A DNA stretch of 64,000 nt from Actinomycetes bacterium (lineage in GTDB: Bacteria; Actinomycetota; Acidimicrobiia; Acidimicrobiales; RAAP-2), in assembly GCA_021831035.1 (NCBI GenBank), contig JAKBNL010000009.1:1-64000 (forward strand). Reading direction: 5' to 3'. A model generated the notes under the pieces. That model made no database searches. It was not told the DNA's origin and saw nothing but the letters and a program-made list of their open reading frames with translations. Position numbers and translations under genes: made by a program. Positions 391 to 7,816 of the stretch are shown here, piece by piece (within the stretch, counting starts at the first letter, position 1; each line of letters opens with the position of its first letter).

Positions 391-1158
391 TCAGCGCGGC
401 GGCCCGAAGAAACCCCTCGTCCGGTCCTCGCGCAACAGGTCGTACATCTCCTCGTCGGGTGTCGACTCCGACTGGAGCCAGTGGATCAAATTCCAAAAGA
501 CGATCGGGATGAACGTCGCGGCCGAGGTCACCCAGAGCACCCCGGTGCTCAACTCCTTGTCCGCGATGACCGACACGCCCCGCCCGGCCACGTGGTGAAA
601 GACGTGGTACCACCCCGCCCCGGTCATGCCGTCCATGTAGCCGATGATCCAGATCGCCCACATCGCCACCGCGGCCATGAAGATCCGCGGGACCCTCTTG
701 GTCCCCGGCGAGTGCGGGGGCGACTCGACGAGCGCGAGGAAGAGCGCCCCACCCGAGACGAGGAACGACAGGCCCTCGAGCAGCCGTCCCCACGGGTGCG
801 CCGCGACGTCGTCGACGACCGGGGTGACCCGCCAGAAGATCTCGAGCGCCACGAAGGCGACGGTGACCACGACCGCCCGCCGCTCGCGCCCGTCCGCCTC
901 GCGCCTGGTCCACCAGCGGCAGAACCAGGTCGGGCTCCGATCGCCCTCGAGGAAGGCCCGACCGGCCCGGGTCCGGCGCCAGGGGGCACCGACGACGAGC
1001 AGGGCCGGCGCCCAGTAGGCGAACACCCCGTACTGCAGGGAACTCACGTACTCGAAGCGACCGGCCCAACCCTCGAGAGGCGGCACCGCGAAGGCGACCC
1101 ATAGGACCACTCCCGCGGCCAACGCGGCGTCACGGACGAGCCTCTCCCGCGCCGCCAT
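391..1158 (-). CDS. CtaG-like cytochrome c oxidase assembly membrane protein
   Basis: 255 aa, multiple hydrophobic segments, His-rich GWYHVFHHVAGRG and DKELSTGVLW resembling the CtaG (caa3) C-terminal region; directly downstream of the oxidase genes. Confidence 0.6.
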   Translation of the reverse strand: MAARERLVRDAALAAGVVLWVAFAVPPLEGWAGRFEYVSSLQYGVFAYWAPALLVVGAPWRRTRAGRAFLEGDRSPTWFCRWWTRREADGRERRAVVVTVAFVALEIFWRVTPVVDDVAAHPWGRLLEGLSFLVSGGALFLALVESPPHSPGTKRVPRIFMAAVAMWAIWIIGYMDGMTGAGWYHVFHHVAGRGVSVIADKELSTGVLWVTSAATFIPIVFWNLIHWLQSESTPDEEMYDLLREDRTRGFFGPPR

Positions 1159-1316: not shown

Positions 1317-1976
1317 TTACGCCACGTAGAACATCAAGAAGAACATGATGCTCACGATGGCGATGAATCCCATGTAGTACGACATCGAGGACACGTTCGC
1401 TCGGAACGAGCGAGCCGGGTAGGCCGAGGAGAGCTCGGGGTTGGCCCCCCCGAGCTCCTTGCGCAGGCGCAGCGCCCGCACGACGGTCGTCTCCATCCAG
1501 TAGGTGGCGAAGACGATCGTCATGATGTTCATGACCACGAAGCCCATGAACGTCGAGGCGTAGCCGCTCGAGCCGGGATAGAACGGCAGGACCACGAGCT
1601 CCCAGATCTGGAAGAATAGCGCGATCAGTCCGGCCGCGACGCCCGTCCATCCCGCCACCTGGAAGTCGTTGGTGAAGCCCTTCTTCAGCCGGCGGTGACC
1701 GTAGTTCGCCAGACCCGCCATCAGCAGCAGGCAGATCAGCACCGTCCAGCCGTAGTAGAGCGGCGCCAACTGGCCCGGGAGCCGCCACAGGTGGGAGTTG
1801 TTGCTCGTCCTCAGGTAGAAGTACGCGAACGCCTCCGACGCGTAGAGGAACGTCGACATCCCGATCGCCAGTCGGCCGCCGGTCCAGATCGACCCGATGT
1901 GGGCACGAAACTCGTACTCGCGCTCCTCGGGCGTCTCGTTCGGCGCCGTGAGCGAGTCCTTGTAGGTGTCTGTCAT
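1317..1976 (-). CDS. ctaE: cytochrome c oxidase subunit III
   Basis: FLYASEAFAYFYLRT, FQIWELVVLPF; RBS GGAGAG upstream of ATG at 1976 (track start 1991 is upstream). Confidence 0.88.
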   Translation of the reverse strand: MTDTYKDSLTAPNETPEEREYEFRAHIGSIWTGGRLAIGMSTFLYASEAFAYFYLRTSNNSHLWRLPGQLAPLYYGWTVLICLLLMAGLANYGHRRLKKGFTNDFQVAGWTGVAAGLIALFFQIWELVVLPFYPGSSGYASTFMGFVVMNIMTIVFATYWMETTVVRALRLRKELGGANPELSSAYPARSFRANVSSMSYYMGFIAIVSIMFFLMFYVA

Positions 1977-1991
1977 GTCCGTGCTCTCCAC

Positions 1992-3956
1992 TTACTCTTG
2001 GACCGAACTGCCGACCGTGCCCGCACCCGCGCCCGTCCCGCCGCCGAAGTCGGCGTAGGCGGGGGCCCCGGGCTCGCTGTAGCGGTAGGGCTCCGTGACG
2101 ATCACCGGGATCCGCTCGAAGTTGTAGAGCGGGACCGGGTTCGCGGTCTGCCACTCGAGGCCGAGCGACTCCCACGGGTTCGCCGGGGCCTTCTTCGGGT
2201 TGATGATCATCGAGTACATCAGGTTCCAGAAGAAGAGCAGGAACGACGCTCCCAGGCAGAAGGCGCTGATCGACGAGAAGTCGTTAAGCCCCTGCAGGTT
2301 GTGCGCGTACTCGAAGACTCGACGGGGCTGACCGAGCAGCCCGATGATGAACATGGGGAAGAAGGTCAGGTTGAAGAAGACGAACATCGTCCAGAAGTGC
2401 CAGAGGCCCAGCTTCTTGTTCATCATGCGTCCGGTCATCTTGGGCAGCCAGTAGTACAGGCCCGCCATGAAGGCGAACACCAGGCCACCCATGATCGTGT
2501 AGTGGAAGTGCGAGAGCACGAAGAAGCTGCCGTGAACCGTCACGTTCACCGGCACGTCCGAGAGGAAGACGCCCGTGATGCCCCCGATGAGGAAGTTGAA
2601 GTAGAGGGCGAGGCAAAAGAGCATCGGCACCTCGAGGCGCATCTTGCCCCGATAGAGCGATCCCATGCCCACCAGGTAGATGAAGCCCGTCGGGATGGAG
2701 ATGAGCTCGGTCGTGAGCATGAAGAGCGGCCGCATGTCCGGGTTGATGCCGCTCTGGAACAGGTGGTGCTGCCAGACGAAGAACGACAGCAGTGCGACGC
2801 CCATCATCCCCGCGGCCGCCACCTTGTAGGCGAAGAGCGGCTTTCGGGTGAAGACCGGCACGATCTCGGCCACGATGCCGAATCCCGGGAGCGCCATGAT
2901 GTACACCTCGGGGTGGCCGAAGAACCAGAAGAGGTTCTCCCACAGGTACGAGCTGCCGCCGTGCTCGTTCACGTAGAGCGAGGTCAGCACCAGGTGGTCG
3001 AGGAGGCCGAAGAGGCCCGCCGTGAACAGGACCGGCGTCGCCAGGGTGAGCAGTGACGCCGTCGCGAGGATCGACCACACGAACATCGGCACCCGGCTCC
3101 AGGTCATCCCCGGGGCCCGGTAGTTCACGATGGTCACCGCGATGTTGAAGCCCGCCGACATCATGCCGATGCCGATCACGGCGAAGCCGAACAGGTACGA
3201 GATCATCCCCGGTCCGGCCTGGTTCTGCAGCGGTGCGTAGCCCGTCCAGCCCGTCGGGAAGCCGCCGTAGAAGAGCGCGGAGAAGATGACCATGTAGCCG
3301 GCGCTGAAGATCCAGAAGCTGAAGGCCTCGACCCGGGGGAAGGCCATCCGGCGCGACCCGATCATGAGCGGCACCAGGTAGTTACCGAGGGGGCCCACCA
3401 CGATCGAGGTCGCCATCATCATCATGATCGTGCCGTGCTCCGACACGATCTCGATGTAGGTCCCCGGGTTGAAGATGTGCACCGTCGGGTTCAGCAGCTC
3501 GGTGCGGATCGCCATGGCGAGCAGGCCGCCCGTGAAGAGGAACAGCAGCACGCCCACCACGTACTGCATGCCCACGACCTTGTGGTCCAGGGTGTAGCGG
3601 AAGTACCGGCTCAGTCCGGGCGCCGGGGTCTCCTCGCCCGGCTCGCGCCCGAAGAGCTTCAGGATCGGGTAGTTGAGCGCCCCGATCCCGAGCAGCCAGC
3701 CGATCACCATGAACAGCAGGCCGAGGAAGTCGGCGACGCCGTTCTGGCCGTTGTTGGCGATGTAGGTGTAGCCGCTCGCCAGGTAGTTGCCCCACCAGTG
3801 ACCGAAGACGTAGCCCAGGAAGCCCAGCACGATCGCCGTGCCGAGGTGCTGGCTCATCCAGCCGGGCCGGTTCGTCCACGAGGACCCCGATCGGGGCCCC
3901 GCGGGCGACGCCGTGCCGGCCGTCGCCTCGGTGGGTCGCTCGGCGCTAATTGTCAT
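1992..3956 (-). CDS. ctaD: cytochrome c oxidase subunit I with N-terminal extension
   Basis: GHPEVYIMALPGFG, WQHHLF, HGTIMMM, HFHYTIMGG haem-copper oxidase motifs; 654 aa. Confidence 0.95.
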   Translation of the reverse strand: MTISAERPTEATAGTASPAGPRSGSSWTNRPGWMSQHLGTAIVLGFLGYVFGHWWGNYLASGYTYIANNGQNGVADFLGLLFMVIGWLLGIGALNYPILKLFGREPGEETPAPGLSRYFRYTLDHKVVGMQYVVGVLLFLFTGGLLAMAIRTELLNPTVHIFNPGTYIEIVSEHGTIMMMMATSIVVGPLGNYLVPLMIGSRRMAFPRVEAFSFWIFSAGYMVIFSALFYGGFPTGWTGYAPLQNQAGPGMISYLFGFAVIGIGMMSAGFNIAVTIVNYRAPGMTWSRVPMFVWSILATASLLTLATPVLFTAGLFGLLDHLVLTSLYVNEHGGSSYLWENLFWFFGHPEVYIMALPGFGIVAEIVPVFTRKPLFAYKVAAAGMMGVALLSFFVWQHHLFQSGINPDMRPLFMLTTELISIPTGFIYLVGMGSLYRGKMRLEVPMLFCLALYFNFLIGGITGVFLSDVPVNVTVHGSFFVLSHFHYTIMGGLVFAFMAGLYYWLPKMTGRMMNKKLGLWHFWTMFVFFNLTFFPMFIIGLLGQPRRVFEYAHNLQGLNDFSSISAFCLGASFLLFFWNLMYSMIINPKKAPANPWESLGLEWQTANPVPLYNFERIPVIVTEPYRYSEPGAPAYADFGGGTGAGAGTVGSSVQE

Positions 3957-4014: not shown

Positions 4015-4983
4015 TCACGCGGCCGGCTGCTTGGCGCCGTACACGTCGTACGGGCTGTAGGGGGTGACGTTGCCGTCGGGGTAGAGGCCACCGGACGCGC
4101 CGTTGGCGTCGGGGGTGTAGGTCCAGGCGAAGGGCGGCAGGTACTTCGTGTTCTGCGCGTTCTGCGCCTCGGTCTTGGTGGCCCAGGCCATGAAGGCCGT
4201 CTTGGAGAGGATCCGGCCGCTGTTGTACATCGCCCCGTGCCAGATGCCGCAGAGCTCGTCGCAGCGCACCATGAACTGACCCTGTTGCTTGGTGTCGGCG
4301 AAGGCCACGTTGTTGACCCCGGGGTTGGCGTCGGCCTTGACGCTCAGCTGGTAGGCCCAGAAGTCGTGGATGACGTCGAGCGACGTGACGTCGAAGACGA
4401 CCTCGGTGTTGACGGGCAGCAGGAGCCGGTCCGTCTCCATGCCGCCGAAGGCCGGGTAGCGATAGGTGAACTTCCACTGCTGGGCGATCACCTGGACGAC
4501 GAGGGGCTGGCTGCCGGCGGGCGACCAGGTCGCCTTGCCCGCCAGGGCCGCGTTGTTGGCGGCGATTGCACCTTCGGGCGCCCACACGGGGTTCGGGCCC
4601 TCGCCGCCACCCGAGCCGTGGTCGCCGATGAGGGCGATGGTGCCGTAGATCGCGGCCGACACCACGACGATCGAGGTGATCGTGATCCAGCCGGCCTGCA
4701 CGCCGCGGCTGGCCTTGGCGGCCTCGCCTCCCACCGGGTCCGGCACGCCGGGCTTGTCGCGCCACTTCACCACCGCGTAGCCCAGCCAGATCCACACCAT
4801 GAACACGACCGGCAGGGCCGTGACGGCGAGGATGTTGAAGTCGAACTGGTTCCAGTGGGCCGATTCGGTCATGTTCCCGGGGGGGATGTGCGGACCGACC
4901 AGGAACCACCACAGCAGGTCACCGATCACCGACACGATGACCCAGGCGGTCACGATGCGGCGCATCTCACTTCCGTTGTTCAT
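4015..4983 (-). CDS. ctaC: cytochrome c oxidase subunit II
   Basis: CuA motif RCDELCGIWHGAM; VIHDFWAYQL; two N-terminal TM segments. Confidence 0.93.
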   Translation of the reverse strand: MNNGSEMRRIVTAWVIVSVIGDLLWWFLVGPHIPPGNMTESAHWNQFDFNILAVTALPVVFMVWIWLGYAVVKWRDKPGVPDPVGGEAAKASRGVQAGWITITSIVVVSAAIYGTIALIGDHGSGGGEGPNPVWAPEGAIAANNAALAGKATWSPAGSQPLVVQVIAQQWKFTYRYPAFGGMETDRLLLPVNTEVVFDVTSLDVIHDFWAYQLSVKADANPGVNNVAFADTKQQGQFMVRCDELCGIWHGAMYNSGRILSKTAFMAWATKTEAQNAQNTKYLPPFAWTYTPDANGASGGLYPDGNVTPYSPYDVYGAKQPAA

Positions 4984-5016: not shown

Positions 5017-5703
5017 TTACTGCTGGACCACGTCCAAGAAGCCGCCCATGTAGCCATAGGTAGACATCGGACCGCCGTTGCCGTAGAGGTAGCCCAATCC
5101 GCAGGGCACGAAGCACTGCCAGTGGTACTCCCCCGTCTTCGCCGGCGTCTTGAAGCTGAAGGTGATCGTGTTGTGCGGCTGCTTCAGGGTGCACGGGGCC
5201 ACCCCGCACAGCGAGAGGTTGCCGTTCACCCCGACCAGCGGGACGCTGAGCCCGAGGGAGGGGACGGTGAAGGTGTGGCCGACGCCGTTGCCCGCGTAGG
5301 AGTTGTAGGTGCTGTAGGAGGTGCCGTTCAGGCTCGCGACGTTGCCCGTGGTGCCGGTGACCTGGCCCCACTGCTGGTTGCGCAGCGGGCTACCCGAGTC
5401 GTACTGCAGGACCGTCACGTTGACCTGGGTGTTGGCGGGCAGCTGCCAGGTGGTGTTGTGGACCCACTTGCCCTGGGGCGTCTTCACCAGGTAGGAGACC
5501 CAGGTCGGGTGGTCCCCGAAGCCGATCGAGCCGACCGTCTGGATCGTCATGTTCACCGGCTGGCCGGCGGCGGAACTCCCGACGAAGTTCACGACCCCCT
5601 CGGGGGTCCCGGGGGTCAGCAGTCCCATCAGGACCCAGATGATCAGCCCGACGGCGACCACGAAGAGTCCGAGGACGGTCCCCAATCTTCCACTCATCGT
5701 CAT
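5017..5703 (-). CDS. membrane-anchored cupredoxin-like protein
   Basis: N-terminal TM, then GVGHTFTVPSLGLSVPL and YHWQCFVPCGLGYLYGNGGPM, resembling cupredoxin/CuA ligand regions; first gene of the oxidase operon. Confidence 0.65.
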   Translation of the reverse strand: MTMSGRLGTVLGLFVVAVGLIIWVLMGLLTPGTPEGVVNFVGSSAAGQPVNMTIQTVGSIGFGDHPTWVSYLVKTPQGKWVHNTTWQLPANTQVNVTVLQYDSGSPLRNQQWGQVTGTTGNVASLNGTSYSTYNSYAGNGVGHTFTVPSLGLSVPLVGVNGNLSLCGVAPCTLKQPHNTITFSFKTPAKTGEYHWQCFVPCGLGYLYGNGGPMSTYGYMGGFLDVVQQ

Positions 5704-5777: not shown

Positions 5778-6083
5778 TTGTCCGCCAAAAATAAGAACGT
5801 TCTTCTGATATACGTCGGCCTCGCGGTCGCCGAGGCCCTCTGCTGGACGGCGTTCGGCTTCGAGCTGGATCGGGCGCTAACGGGCAATCACCTGTCGTGG
5901 GCCTACGTCTTCGAGTGGCCCCTCTTCTCGCTCTACGCGCTGTATATGGCGCGCAAAATGCTGAGAGAAGAGCGCACGCCCCCCACCGCGCCGGCCGGCG
6001 ACCCGACCGAGGACGCCGCCCTCGCGGCCTACAACGAGTACTTGCGCCGCGTCCACCGCGACGGGGGGCCCCCGACGCCCTAG
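5778..6083 (+). CDS. small membrane protein, hypothetical
   Basis: TTG start with upstream TAAGGA; two hydrophobic helices; divergent from the oxidase operon. Confidence 0.6.
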   Translation: MSAKNKNVLLIYVGLAVAEALCWTAFGFELDRALTGNHLSWAYVFEWPLFSLYALYMARKMLREERTPPTAPAGDPTEDAALAAYNEYLRRVHRDGGPPTP

Positions 6084-7816
6084 TGCAGCCCGATCTGGCC
6101 GAGCAGCCCGAGCAGCTCGGTCACCGTCGAGGTCGTCTGGGCGCCGCCGCGGCCCGGGTCGTCCGGGACGATCCAGCGCACGTAGCCGTGGGGGTCGATC
6201 ACGTAGAGGTAGTCGGCGTGGACGCTCATGGCGAAGCCCCTCTCGTTCGAGACCCCGATGCCGTAGGCGTTCCACACCGCCCGGGTCTGAGCGACCGGAC
6301 CGGTCACGAAGTAGAAGTTCGGCATCGCGGCGAGGTGGTGGATGGAGATGAAGTGGCGCACGTCGGCGAGCGACTGGTGTTCGGGGTTGGCCGCGACCGC
6401 CACCACGTCGACCGGCGCCGTCGGGCCGAGCGCCGCGCGTACCTGCTCGAGCTGGTTGGCGATGATCGGGCAGTCGGTCCAACAGACCGGGTCGAGGAAC
6501 GCCAGGATCGTGTAGCGGCCCCGGTGCGAACCGAGCGTGAAGGGCCGTCCGTGCTGGTCGGTGAGGGTGAAGGTCGTCTCGCGCACGTGCTCGGAGCCGA
6601 CCGAGCCGTTGGCCGCGAGAAAGAGGGTCGACTCGGCCGGCGAGAACGCGGCCACGGCCATCGACCCGGCGGAGAAGAGCACCATCGCCGCGGCGAAGGC
6701 GGCCACCACCGAGCCCGAGTTCGAGCGCAGCTCGCGCGGCCAGCGCCGCGCGAGGGGCTCGCGCGCCGCGAGGGCCGGACGGGCGCACCAGGCGAGGAAG
6801 GCCATCGGGATCATCGAGTTGACGTCGGTCCCCACGCCCCCGAAGACCGCCAGGTCCTCGCTGCTGACCCAGAAGAACACCGCGCCCACGAGGAGGGTGA
6901 CGTAGGGCCAGGTCACCGGGCGACGCGTCGCCCACCACAGCCCGGCGGCCGTCGTGAGCAGCCAGAGCAGGACGACCACGTTGAAGCCCCCGCCCATCGT
7001 GCCGGCGAGCACGCCGACGTGGCGCACCACCCACGCGAGGGGATGCGGCTGGGCCATCGCGATCATCGTCCGGCTCATCCTGGTGAGGGCGTTGGCATCG
7101 CCCCCACGCCAAAAGCCCGCCGCGGGCAGGACCTGGAGCAGCGCGCCGACGGCGAGGACGACCGCCACCAGTCGGGTCGTCACGACCGCGAAGCGCCAGG
7201 CGAAGAGCTCCGGGCTGAGAGCCAGCCAGACCCCCGCGACGAGGTAGAAGAAGGCCGCACTGGGCCAGCCGAAGAGGATGGAGGCGCCCGGGGCGAAGAC
7301 CCCGCCGAGTCCGTTGCCCACGGCGAAGACGCCCAGCGCCCATCCGGCCGACACGGCCCCGGCCACCCGGCCCAGGCGCCCGTTCGAGCTGAGCAGGGCG
7401 AGGGCGATCCCCACCTGCAACCAGGCGACGCCCGTGGCGAGGGCGATCGGGTGCAGGTTCCACAGGGTGATCGCGTGGCGCAGGACCGGTCGGAAGAACG
7501 CCGGCGTCCCGGCCAGCGCCGGCTGGACCACGTCGTTGGCGAGCCCCAGGGGCATCCCGGGCTGGAACTGCAAGAGCCCATCCATGAGCCAGAGCGCGCC
7601 GAAGCCCACCCGCAGCACGGTGCGCGCGCGCGGCTCGGCCAGGCCCGCCGGGGAGAGGTTGAAGGTGCCGACGCGACCGGTCAGGGTCGCCACGACGAGC
7701 AACACCACGGCCAGGGCGACGATCCAGTAGAGGGCGACCTGGTACGCGCTGTGGTGGAAGGCCGCGACGGTGAGGGCGTTCGTGATCGAGACGCCCTTTT
7801 GTCCCATCCCCGGCAC
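6080..7816 (-). CDS. polytopic membrane (DoxX-like) domain fused to SCO1/SenC copper-chaperone domain
   Basis: About 9 hydrophobic segments, then TFTLTDQHGRPFTLGSHRGRYTILAFLDPVCWTDCPI...SVHADYLYVIDPHGYVRW (CxxxC plus His of the SCO family). Confidence 0.8.
   Translation of the reverse strand: MPGMGQKGVSITNALTVAAFHHSAYQVALYWIVALAVVLLVVATLTGRVGTFNLSPAGLAEPRARTVLRVGFGALWLMDGLLQFQPGMPLGLANDVVQPALAGTPAFFRPVLRHAITLWNLHPIALATGVAWLQVGIALALLSSNGRLGRVAGAVSAGWALGVFAVGNGLGGVFAPGASILFGWPSAAFFYLVAGVWLALSPELFAWRFAVVTTRLVAVVLAVGALLQVLPAAGFWRGGDANALTRMSRTMIAMAQPHPLAWVVRHVGVLAGTMGGGFNVVVLLWLLTTAAGLWWATRRPVTWPYVTLLVGAVFFWVSSEDLAVFGGVGTDVNSMIPMAFLAWCARPALAAREPLARRWPRELRSNSGSVVAAFAAAMVLFSAGSMAVAAFSPAESTLFLAANGSVGSEHVRETTFTLTDQHGRPFTLGSHRGRYTILAFLDPVCWTDCPIIANQLEQVRAALGPTAPVDVVAVAANPEHQSLADVRHFISIHHLAAMPNFYFVTGPVAQTRAVWNAYGIGVSNERGFAMSVHADYLYVIDPHGYVRWIVPDDPGRGGAQTTSTVTELLGLLGQIGLH

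Follow-up and report, generated by a model that had tools for sequence, protein, structure and literature searches.

A cytochrome oxidase operon in an actinobacterial genome begins with a cupredoxin-like protein, here termed cup, that appears to carry only part of a CuA ligand set, although the CoxII subunit encoded directly behind it has a CuA set that is complete. The locus raises the question of whether cup is a damaged copy of CuA, a copper-delivery protein or a second redox partner of the oxidase. The window analyzed here is a stretch of 64,000 nucleotides, and its source genome has a size of 1.9 Mb and is 94% complete.

Gene organization of the cup locus

The genes and sites of the locus are arranged as follows.

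391..1158 (-): CtaG-like oxidase assembly protein (PF09678, 1e-16)
1317..1991 (-): CoxIII-like subunit, named by position and conservation, without a Pfam match of its own
1992..3956 (-): CoxI, haem-copper oxidase subunit I, subtype VWQHH/IGSRRMAFPR (PF00115, 6.3e-127; channel motifs)
4015..4983 (-): CoxII with a complete CuA set, H206, C241, C245, H249 and M252 (PF00116, 9.8e-16; alignments)
5017..5703 (-): cup, membrane-anchored cupredoxin-like protein of 228 aa (open reading frame; 73-member alignment; PDB profile matches)
5041..5115 (-): ligand loop of cup, codons 197-221, C197-x3-C201 ... M213 ... M219-x-G221 (alignments)
5275..5277 (-): codon of the invariant His143 of cup (HTF), equivalent to CuA His1 (profile alignment with CoxII)
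5587..5682 (-): N-terminal transmembrane anchor of cup, residues about 8-39 (sequence GTVLGLFVVAVGLIIWVLMGLLTPGTPEGVVN)
5778..6083 (+): small membrane protein, conserved in this slot (synteny)
6080..7816 (-): membrane protein-SCO1/SenC domain fusion, conserved upstream neighbour (PF02630, 2.2e-11; synteny)

The cup gene is the first of a leftward run, cup-CoxII-CoxI-CoxIII, and the gene upstream of it (5778-6083) lies on the opposite strand, in agreement with the earlier note, which had placed it at the head of a cytochrome oxidase operon. The single N-terminal transmembrane segment, the candidate His and the C-terminal C-x3-C that the same note had recognized are all confirmed in the sequence. 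H143 is located within GVGHTFTVPSLG (GHTF), while C197, C201, Y205 and M213 are located within YHWQCFVPCGLGYLYGNGGPM. In the sequence, a hydrophobic N-terminal helix covers residues about 8-29, and a low-confidence AlphaFold model places a helix at residues 3-28. The CuA motif of the adjacent CoxII, CDELCGIWHGAM, is complete as described, and its five residues are invariant in 12 relatives.

In the genomes of the same genus, cup occupies the identical slot in the order efp-nusB-SCO fusion-cup-CoxII-CoxI, with two sequence grades, and the orthologues in this place share 61-93% identity. The SCO fusion (6080-7816, minus strand) has 578 aa, comprising a polytopic membrane domain and a C-terminal SCO1/SenC domain, and is kept between nusB and the oxidase operon. 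Those relatives that bear a name, such as Actinobacteria bacterium 21-73-9, are MAGs, and several of them seem to come from acid mine drainage studies. The same gene order at 69% identity occurs in a record labelled 'Acidobacteriota bacterium isolate REEB101' (L038), probably a mislabelled actinobacterial MAG.

Distribution and invariant residues of the cup family

An HMM search, one of the checks proposed in the earlier note, gives no match for cup in Pfam (E <= 1) or NCBIfam; a single-sequence PDB search gives nothing of note, and a scan of viral contigs finds no relatives. A literature search, in which subscription journals were thinly covered, returns AcoP, sulfocyanin and the 'membrane-bound cupredoxin' as concepts and no description of the cup family. 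The family is nevertheless widespread. When a 30-member cup profile is searched in a sample of the order comprising 299 genomes from 172 genera, members are found in 70 of the genomes and 42 of the genera. Outside the order, cup is present in three further lineages of the phylum, again directly before CoxII.

The 73 aligned members, which represent many families of the order, share seven invariant residues, D102, H143, C197, C201, M213, M219 and G221, and the five candidate ligands remain unchanged down to about 25% identity. Together with the syntenic orthologues, the conservation of these key residues in 73 relatives puts the observation far beyond chance. The spacing is C-x3-C-x11-M-x5-M, with Met invariant twice. 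Like the Met of CuA, M219 stands before the last strand (M-x-G-x-L-x-V), and M213 consequently sits in an inserted loop; the Met that had been regarded as displaced is rather duplicated, with one copy at the CuA place and one extra. At the position of CuA His2, 44 aligned members carry Tyr (14), Phe (7) and then Ser, Ala, Pro, Thr or other residues, and never His. The absence of the usual His thus stands, whereas the Tyr noted in its place is not a conserved feature. Tyr as a replacement ligand is ruled out by the variability of this position.

CuA centres use two His, two Cys and a Met, and type 1 centres use two His, a Cys and a Met. The conserved H/C/C/M/M residue set of cup fits no described metal site. 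The initial reading of an incomplete CuA-type set is therefore correct in that the set is non-canonical; with 73 members it is better read as a putatively complete but different set, conserved for its own sake, and not as damaged CuA. The invariant residues are also in line with the proposal of a second, non-standard metal set apart from the CuA of CoxII.

Stand-alone cup paralogues also form tandem arrays away from oxidase genes (L021:5256-7177, L022:4677-6718 and L126:6624-9373). They possess the same five invariant residues, and some have a secretion-type signal peptide.

Evidence for a cupredoxin fold

The PDB profile matches of cup are nearly all cupredoxins among the matches listed, individual matches being weak, with E values of 0.00088 for auracyanin A, 0.0014 for CuNIR, 0.074 for AcoP and 0.13 for ba3 CuA; across PDB profile searches, AcoP lies between 0.037 and 0.15. 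In the profile-profile alignment with the neighbouring CoxII, H143, C197 and C201 fall on CuA His1, Cys1 and Cys2, respectively. In Pfam, the cup of the window has no match to COX2 (PF00116), PF06525, SCO or PCuAC, while one paralogue reaches 18.1 bits against the PF00116 cut-off of 22 and some paralogues match COX2 weakly (0.0026). Structure prediction, also proposed earlier as a check, is of low confidence: AlphaFold models of the full length and the soluble part, computed from 9 close sequences, have a mean pLDDT of 44 and a pTM of 0.46, and Foldseek with the low-confidence domain model lists CuNIR, CuA subunits, nitrosocyanin and N2OR among its first matches at E >= 0.03, to which little weight is given. 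The profile evidence supports a probable membership of cup in the cupredoxin fold superfamily, as the original cupredoxin-like description had it.

Pairing of cup with one oxidase class

A CoxII profile was searched in the same 299 genomes and the positions were matched to those of cup. Each of the 45 CoxII at E <= 1e-62 is preceded by cup on the same strand, with no more than 100 bases separating the matched parts in 44 cases. The profile had been built from cup-linked genes, so that the class definition is not independent. The next nine CoxII in these genomes (E 6e-51 to 1e-38) have cup upstream in no case. A class without a single cup-less member is informative despite the origin of the profile, and the co-occurrence with an oxidase type that the earlier note had put forward for examination is thereby found. 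Conversely, 52 of the 97 full-length cup members in the order have no CoxII beside them, some lying in tandem arrays and others at contig ends, which indicates that the role of the cup domain extends beyond that of an oxidase subunit.

The CoxI linked to cup falls into two subtypes, VWQHH and VWAHH. An extra C166-x4-C171 pair is present in all 44 VWQHH-paired cups (L152 counted by eye) and in none of the 14 VWAHH-paired cups. Furthermore, the nearest neighbour of a cup never belongs to the other CoxI subtype, the distances of cup and CoxI correlate at 0.96, and in genomes possessing both operons (e.g. G150 and G162) each oxidase subtype retains its own matched cup. A second metal site formed by C166 and C171 is disfavoured by their confinement to one subtype, and the pair more likely forms a disulfide. 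Taken together, cup is a real, widespread and unnamed cupredoxin-like family with invariant H/C/C/M/M residues, tied tightly to one actinobacterial oxidase class.

The CoxI of the window (1992-3956, minus strand) has several further features. Its D-channel Asp region reads IGSRRMAFPRVE, compared with IGAPDMAFPRLN in control aa3 oxidases of the same genomes, and its K-channel Lys is missing, with TTELISIPTGFIY compared with LIAVPTGIK in the controls. The K-channel Lys is absent from all cup-linked CoxI that cover the site, and the D-channel Asp is kept in the VWAHH subtype. Proton uptake in this class must differ. About 120 residues with extra hydrophobic stretches precede the COX1 domain, whose match begins at residue 128; an extra N-terminal transmembrane segment has been discussed for early-branching oxidases (PMC8239418). 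The CoxIII-like protein (1317-1991, minus strand) has no Pfam COX3 match, and at most loci of the other subtype in the genus no CoxIII-like gene is recognized beside CoxI.

Comparison of cup with known copper proteins

The closest parallel in organization is AcoP of Acidithiobacillus ferrooxidans (PDB 7z3b), a single-domain cupredoxin with a transmembrane anchor, encoded in an oxidase gene cluster, which is isolated together with the oxidase and accepts electrons from cytochrome c4 in vitro (PMC4059628, PMC5982212). Its copper site is of the green type. Both AcoP and cup have a single cupredoxin domain, an N-terminal transmembrane anchor, a place in the cytochrome oxidase cluster of an acidophile and a long loop between Cys and Met, and AcoP is among the best PDB profile matches. 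However, the ligands of AcoP are H85 and C159-x6-H166-x4-M171 (PMC4059628), whereas cup lacks the second His and has a second Cys and a second Met. The pattern H, C-x6-H-x4-M is absent from cup, which is therefore not classed as AcoP, and pairwise the two show no significant sequence similarity, their profile matches lying at E 0.037-0.15.

In the case of the CuA domain of oxidase subunit II and N2O reductase, cup shares a presumed cupredoxin fold, His1 in HxF, the bridging-type C-x3-C and the Met before the last strand. The ba3 CuA loop, CNQYCGLGHQNMFG, has 6 residues between Cys2 and Met. In cup, 17 residues lie between Cys2 and the last Met, M219, and the additional invariant M213 falls inside the insert relative to the ba3 loop. 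The canonical CuA motif is H-x34-C-x3-C-x3-H-x2-M (PMC6189053); cup has no His2 and is a protein of its own, whose gene neighbours that of a normal CuA subunit.

Sulfocyanin and rusticyanin (PF06525, SoxE) are high-potential cupredoxins of acidophilic iron oxidisers, from which cup differs by its ligand set and by the lack of a PF06525 match, the genome having a separate sulfocyanin-like gene. PmoD, a cupredoxin encoded beside a copper oxidoreductase, forms a CuA-type centre from non-canonical ligands (PMC6189053); unlike cup, it builds this centre where two monomers meet and in another part of the fold, it carries a C-terminal transmembrane segment, and the two proteins have no motif in common. 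SCO resembles cup in having C-x3-C plus His, and SCO and PCuAC chaperones occur in oxidase clusters, but SCO has a thioredoxin fold and cup has neither an SCO nor a PCuAC Pfam match.

Proposed role of cup and alternative explanations

We propose, with a probability of roughly 60%, that cup is a copper-binding partner of the oxidase that works like AcoP with a different ligand set and hands electrons on to CuA. As a membrane-anchored cupredoxin, it would serve the oxidase of the following genes as a dedicated partner subunit. It would probably hold copper at the place that CuA takes in the fold, through one His, a C-x3-C pair of Cys and two Met. Electrons would pass from a high-potential donor outside the membrane to cup and then to the CuA of CoxII, the donor being Fe(II) where the host is an acidophilic iron oxidiser, or else a different carrier. 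AcoP in Acidithiobacillus and sulfocyanin in Ferroplasma have been proposed to do the same job. We infer copper binding, nuclearity, electron transfer and the donor; engineered loop swaps on a CuA scaffold produce mononuclear type 1 sites (PMC7480511), and the nuclearity of cup is consequently not readable from sequence. A more specific version, that cup is a natural CuA-like centre with Met in place of His2 (H/C/C/M/M) on a separate protein, carrying electrons from Fe(II) or a first acceptor to the ordinary oxidase CuA, is put forward tentatively; if true, it would supply the step that is missing from iron respiration in acidophilic actinobacteria.

The chief alternative to an electron-transfer partner is copper delivery, which we regard as rather doubtful. 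As a membrane-anchored metallochaperone, cup would hold Cu(I) by its two Cys, His and Met and load CuA (or CuB). The SCO metal set is C-x3-C plus His, which cup also has; soft dithiolate/Met and Met/Cys-rich sites favour Cu(I); and cup sits among SCO-domain and CtaG-like assembly genes, directly before CoxII. These same neighbours weaken the proposal, since an SCO-domain protein and CtaG already adjoin cup in the genus of the window, and the VWAHH loci of the genus keep cup though CtaG is not recognized next door. In addition, the cup residues fall on redox-site positions of the cupredoxin fold, and the nearest functional parallels in acidophiles, AcoP and sulfocyanin, are assigned to the electron path.

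A structural or protective subunit without a redox role, which would stabilize the oxidase at low pH with the Cys pair as a disulfide, is improbable. For AcoP, the initial proposal was that it keeps the oxidase active at acid pH (PMC4059628), and the metal of cup is itself deduced from residues. However, all 73 sequences, those of members away from the oxidase included, share five invariant metal-type residues, two of them Met, and a pure disulfide would need neither H143, M213 nor M219. A decaying, CoxII-derived copy of CuA that has lost one His is scarcely credible. The cup-CoxII profile alignment over the His/C-x3-C region and the weak COX2 match of some paralogues would fit such an origin, but the cup of the window has no such match, and strict conservation of the altered ligand set throughout the order and in further lineages of the phylum is the opposite of decay and leads us to reject this explanation.

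Under the electron-transfer reading, the family offers a specific candidate, open to testing in a cultured host, for the path from Fe(II) to oxygen in iron-oxidising actinobacteria. For copper-protein chemistry, cup would provide a naturally conserved site of two Cys, one His and two Met at the CuA position, in which one could ask directly whether it is mono- or binuclear and how the potential shifts when Met replaces His.

Candidate electron donors

The genome of the window has two COX1 genes and only one PF00034 match, a diheme, QcrC-like protein of about 390 aa. Acidimicrobium ferrooxidans DSM 10331 has a separate cup operon and a normal oxidase near its diheme cytochrome c, a QcrC-like protein that is likewise the only PF00034 match. 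With only a QcrC-like cytochrome c matched in both genomes, no soluble cytochrome c is evident for the second oxidase, and cup would thus be a natural candidate donor for it. That the oxidase path of iron oxidisers may include membrane-bound cupredoxins has been suggested before (PMC8239418). In live cells of the iron oxidiser Acidimicrobium ferrooxidans, Fe(II) reduces an a-type cytochrome, and a-type cytochromes dominate the live-cell spectra of Acidimicrobium and Ferrimicrobium (PMC5143472). Meanwhile, the genome of the window encodes a sulfocyanin-like protein (G000:C20:16644-16973, L147; PF06525, 35 bits; C-x-x-P-G-H-x4-M), which could itself be the donor or could act before cup.
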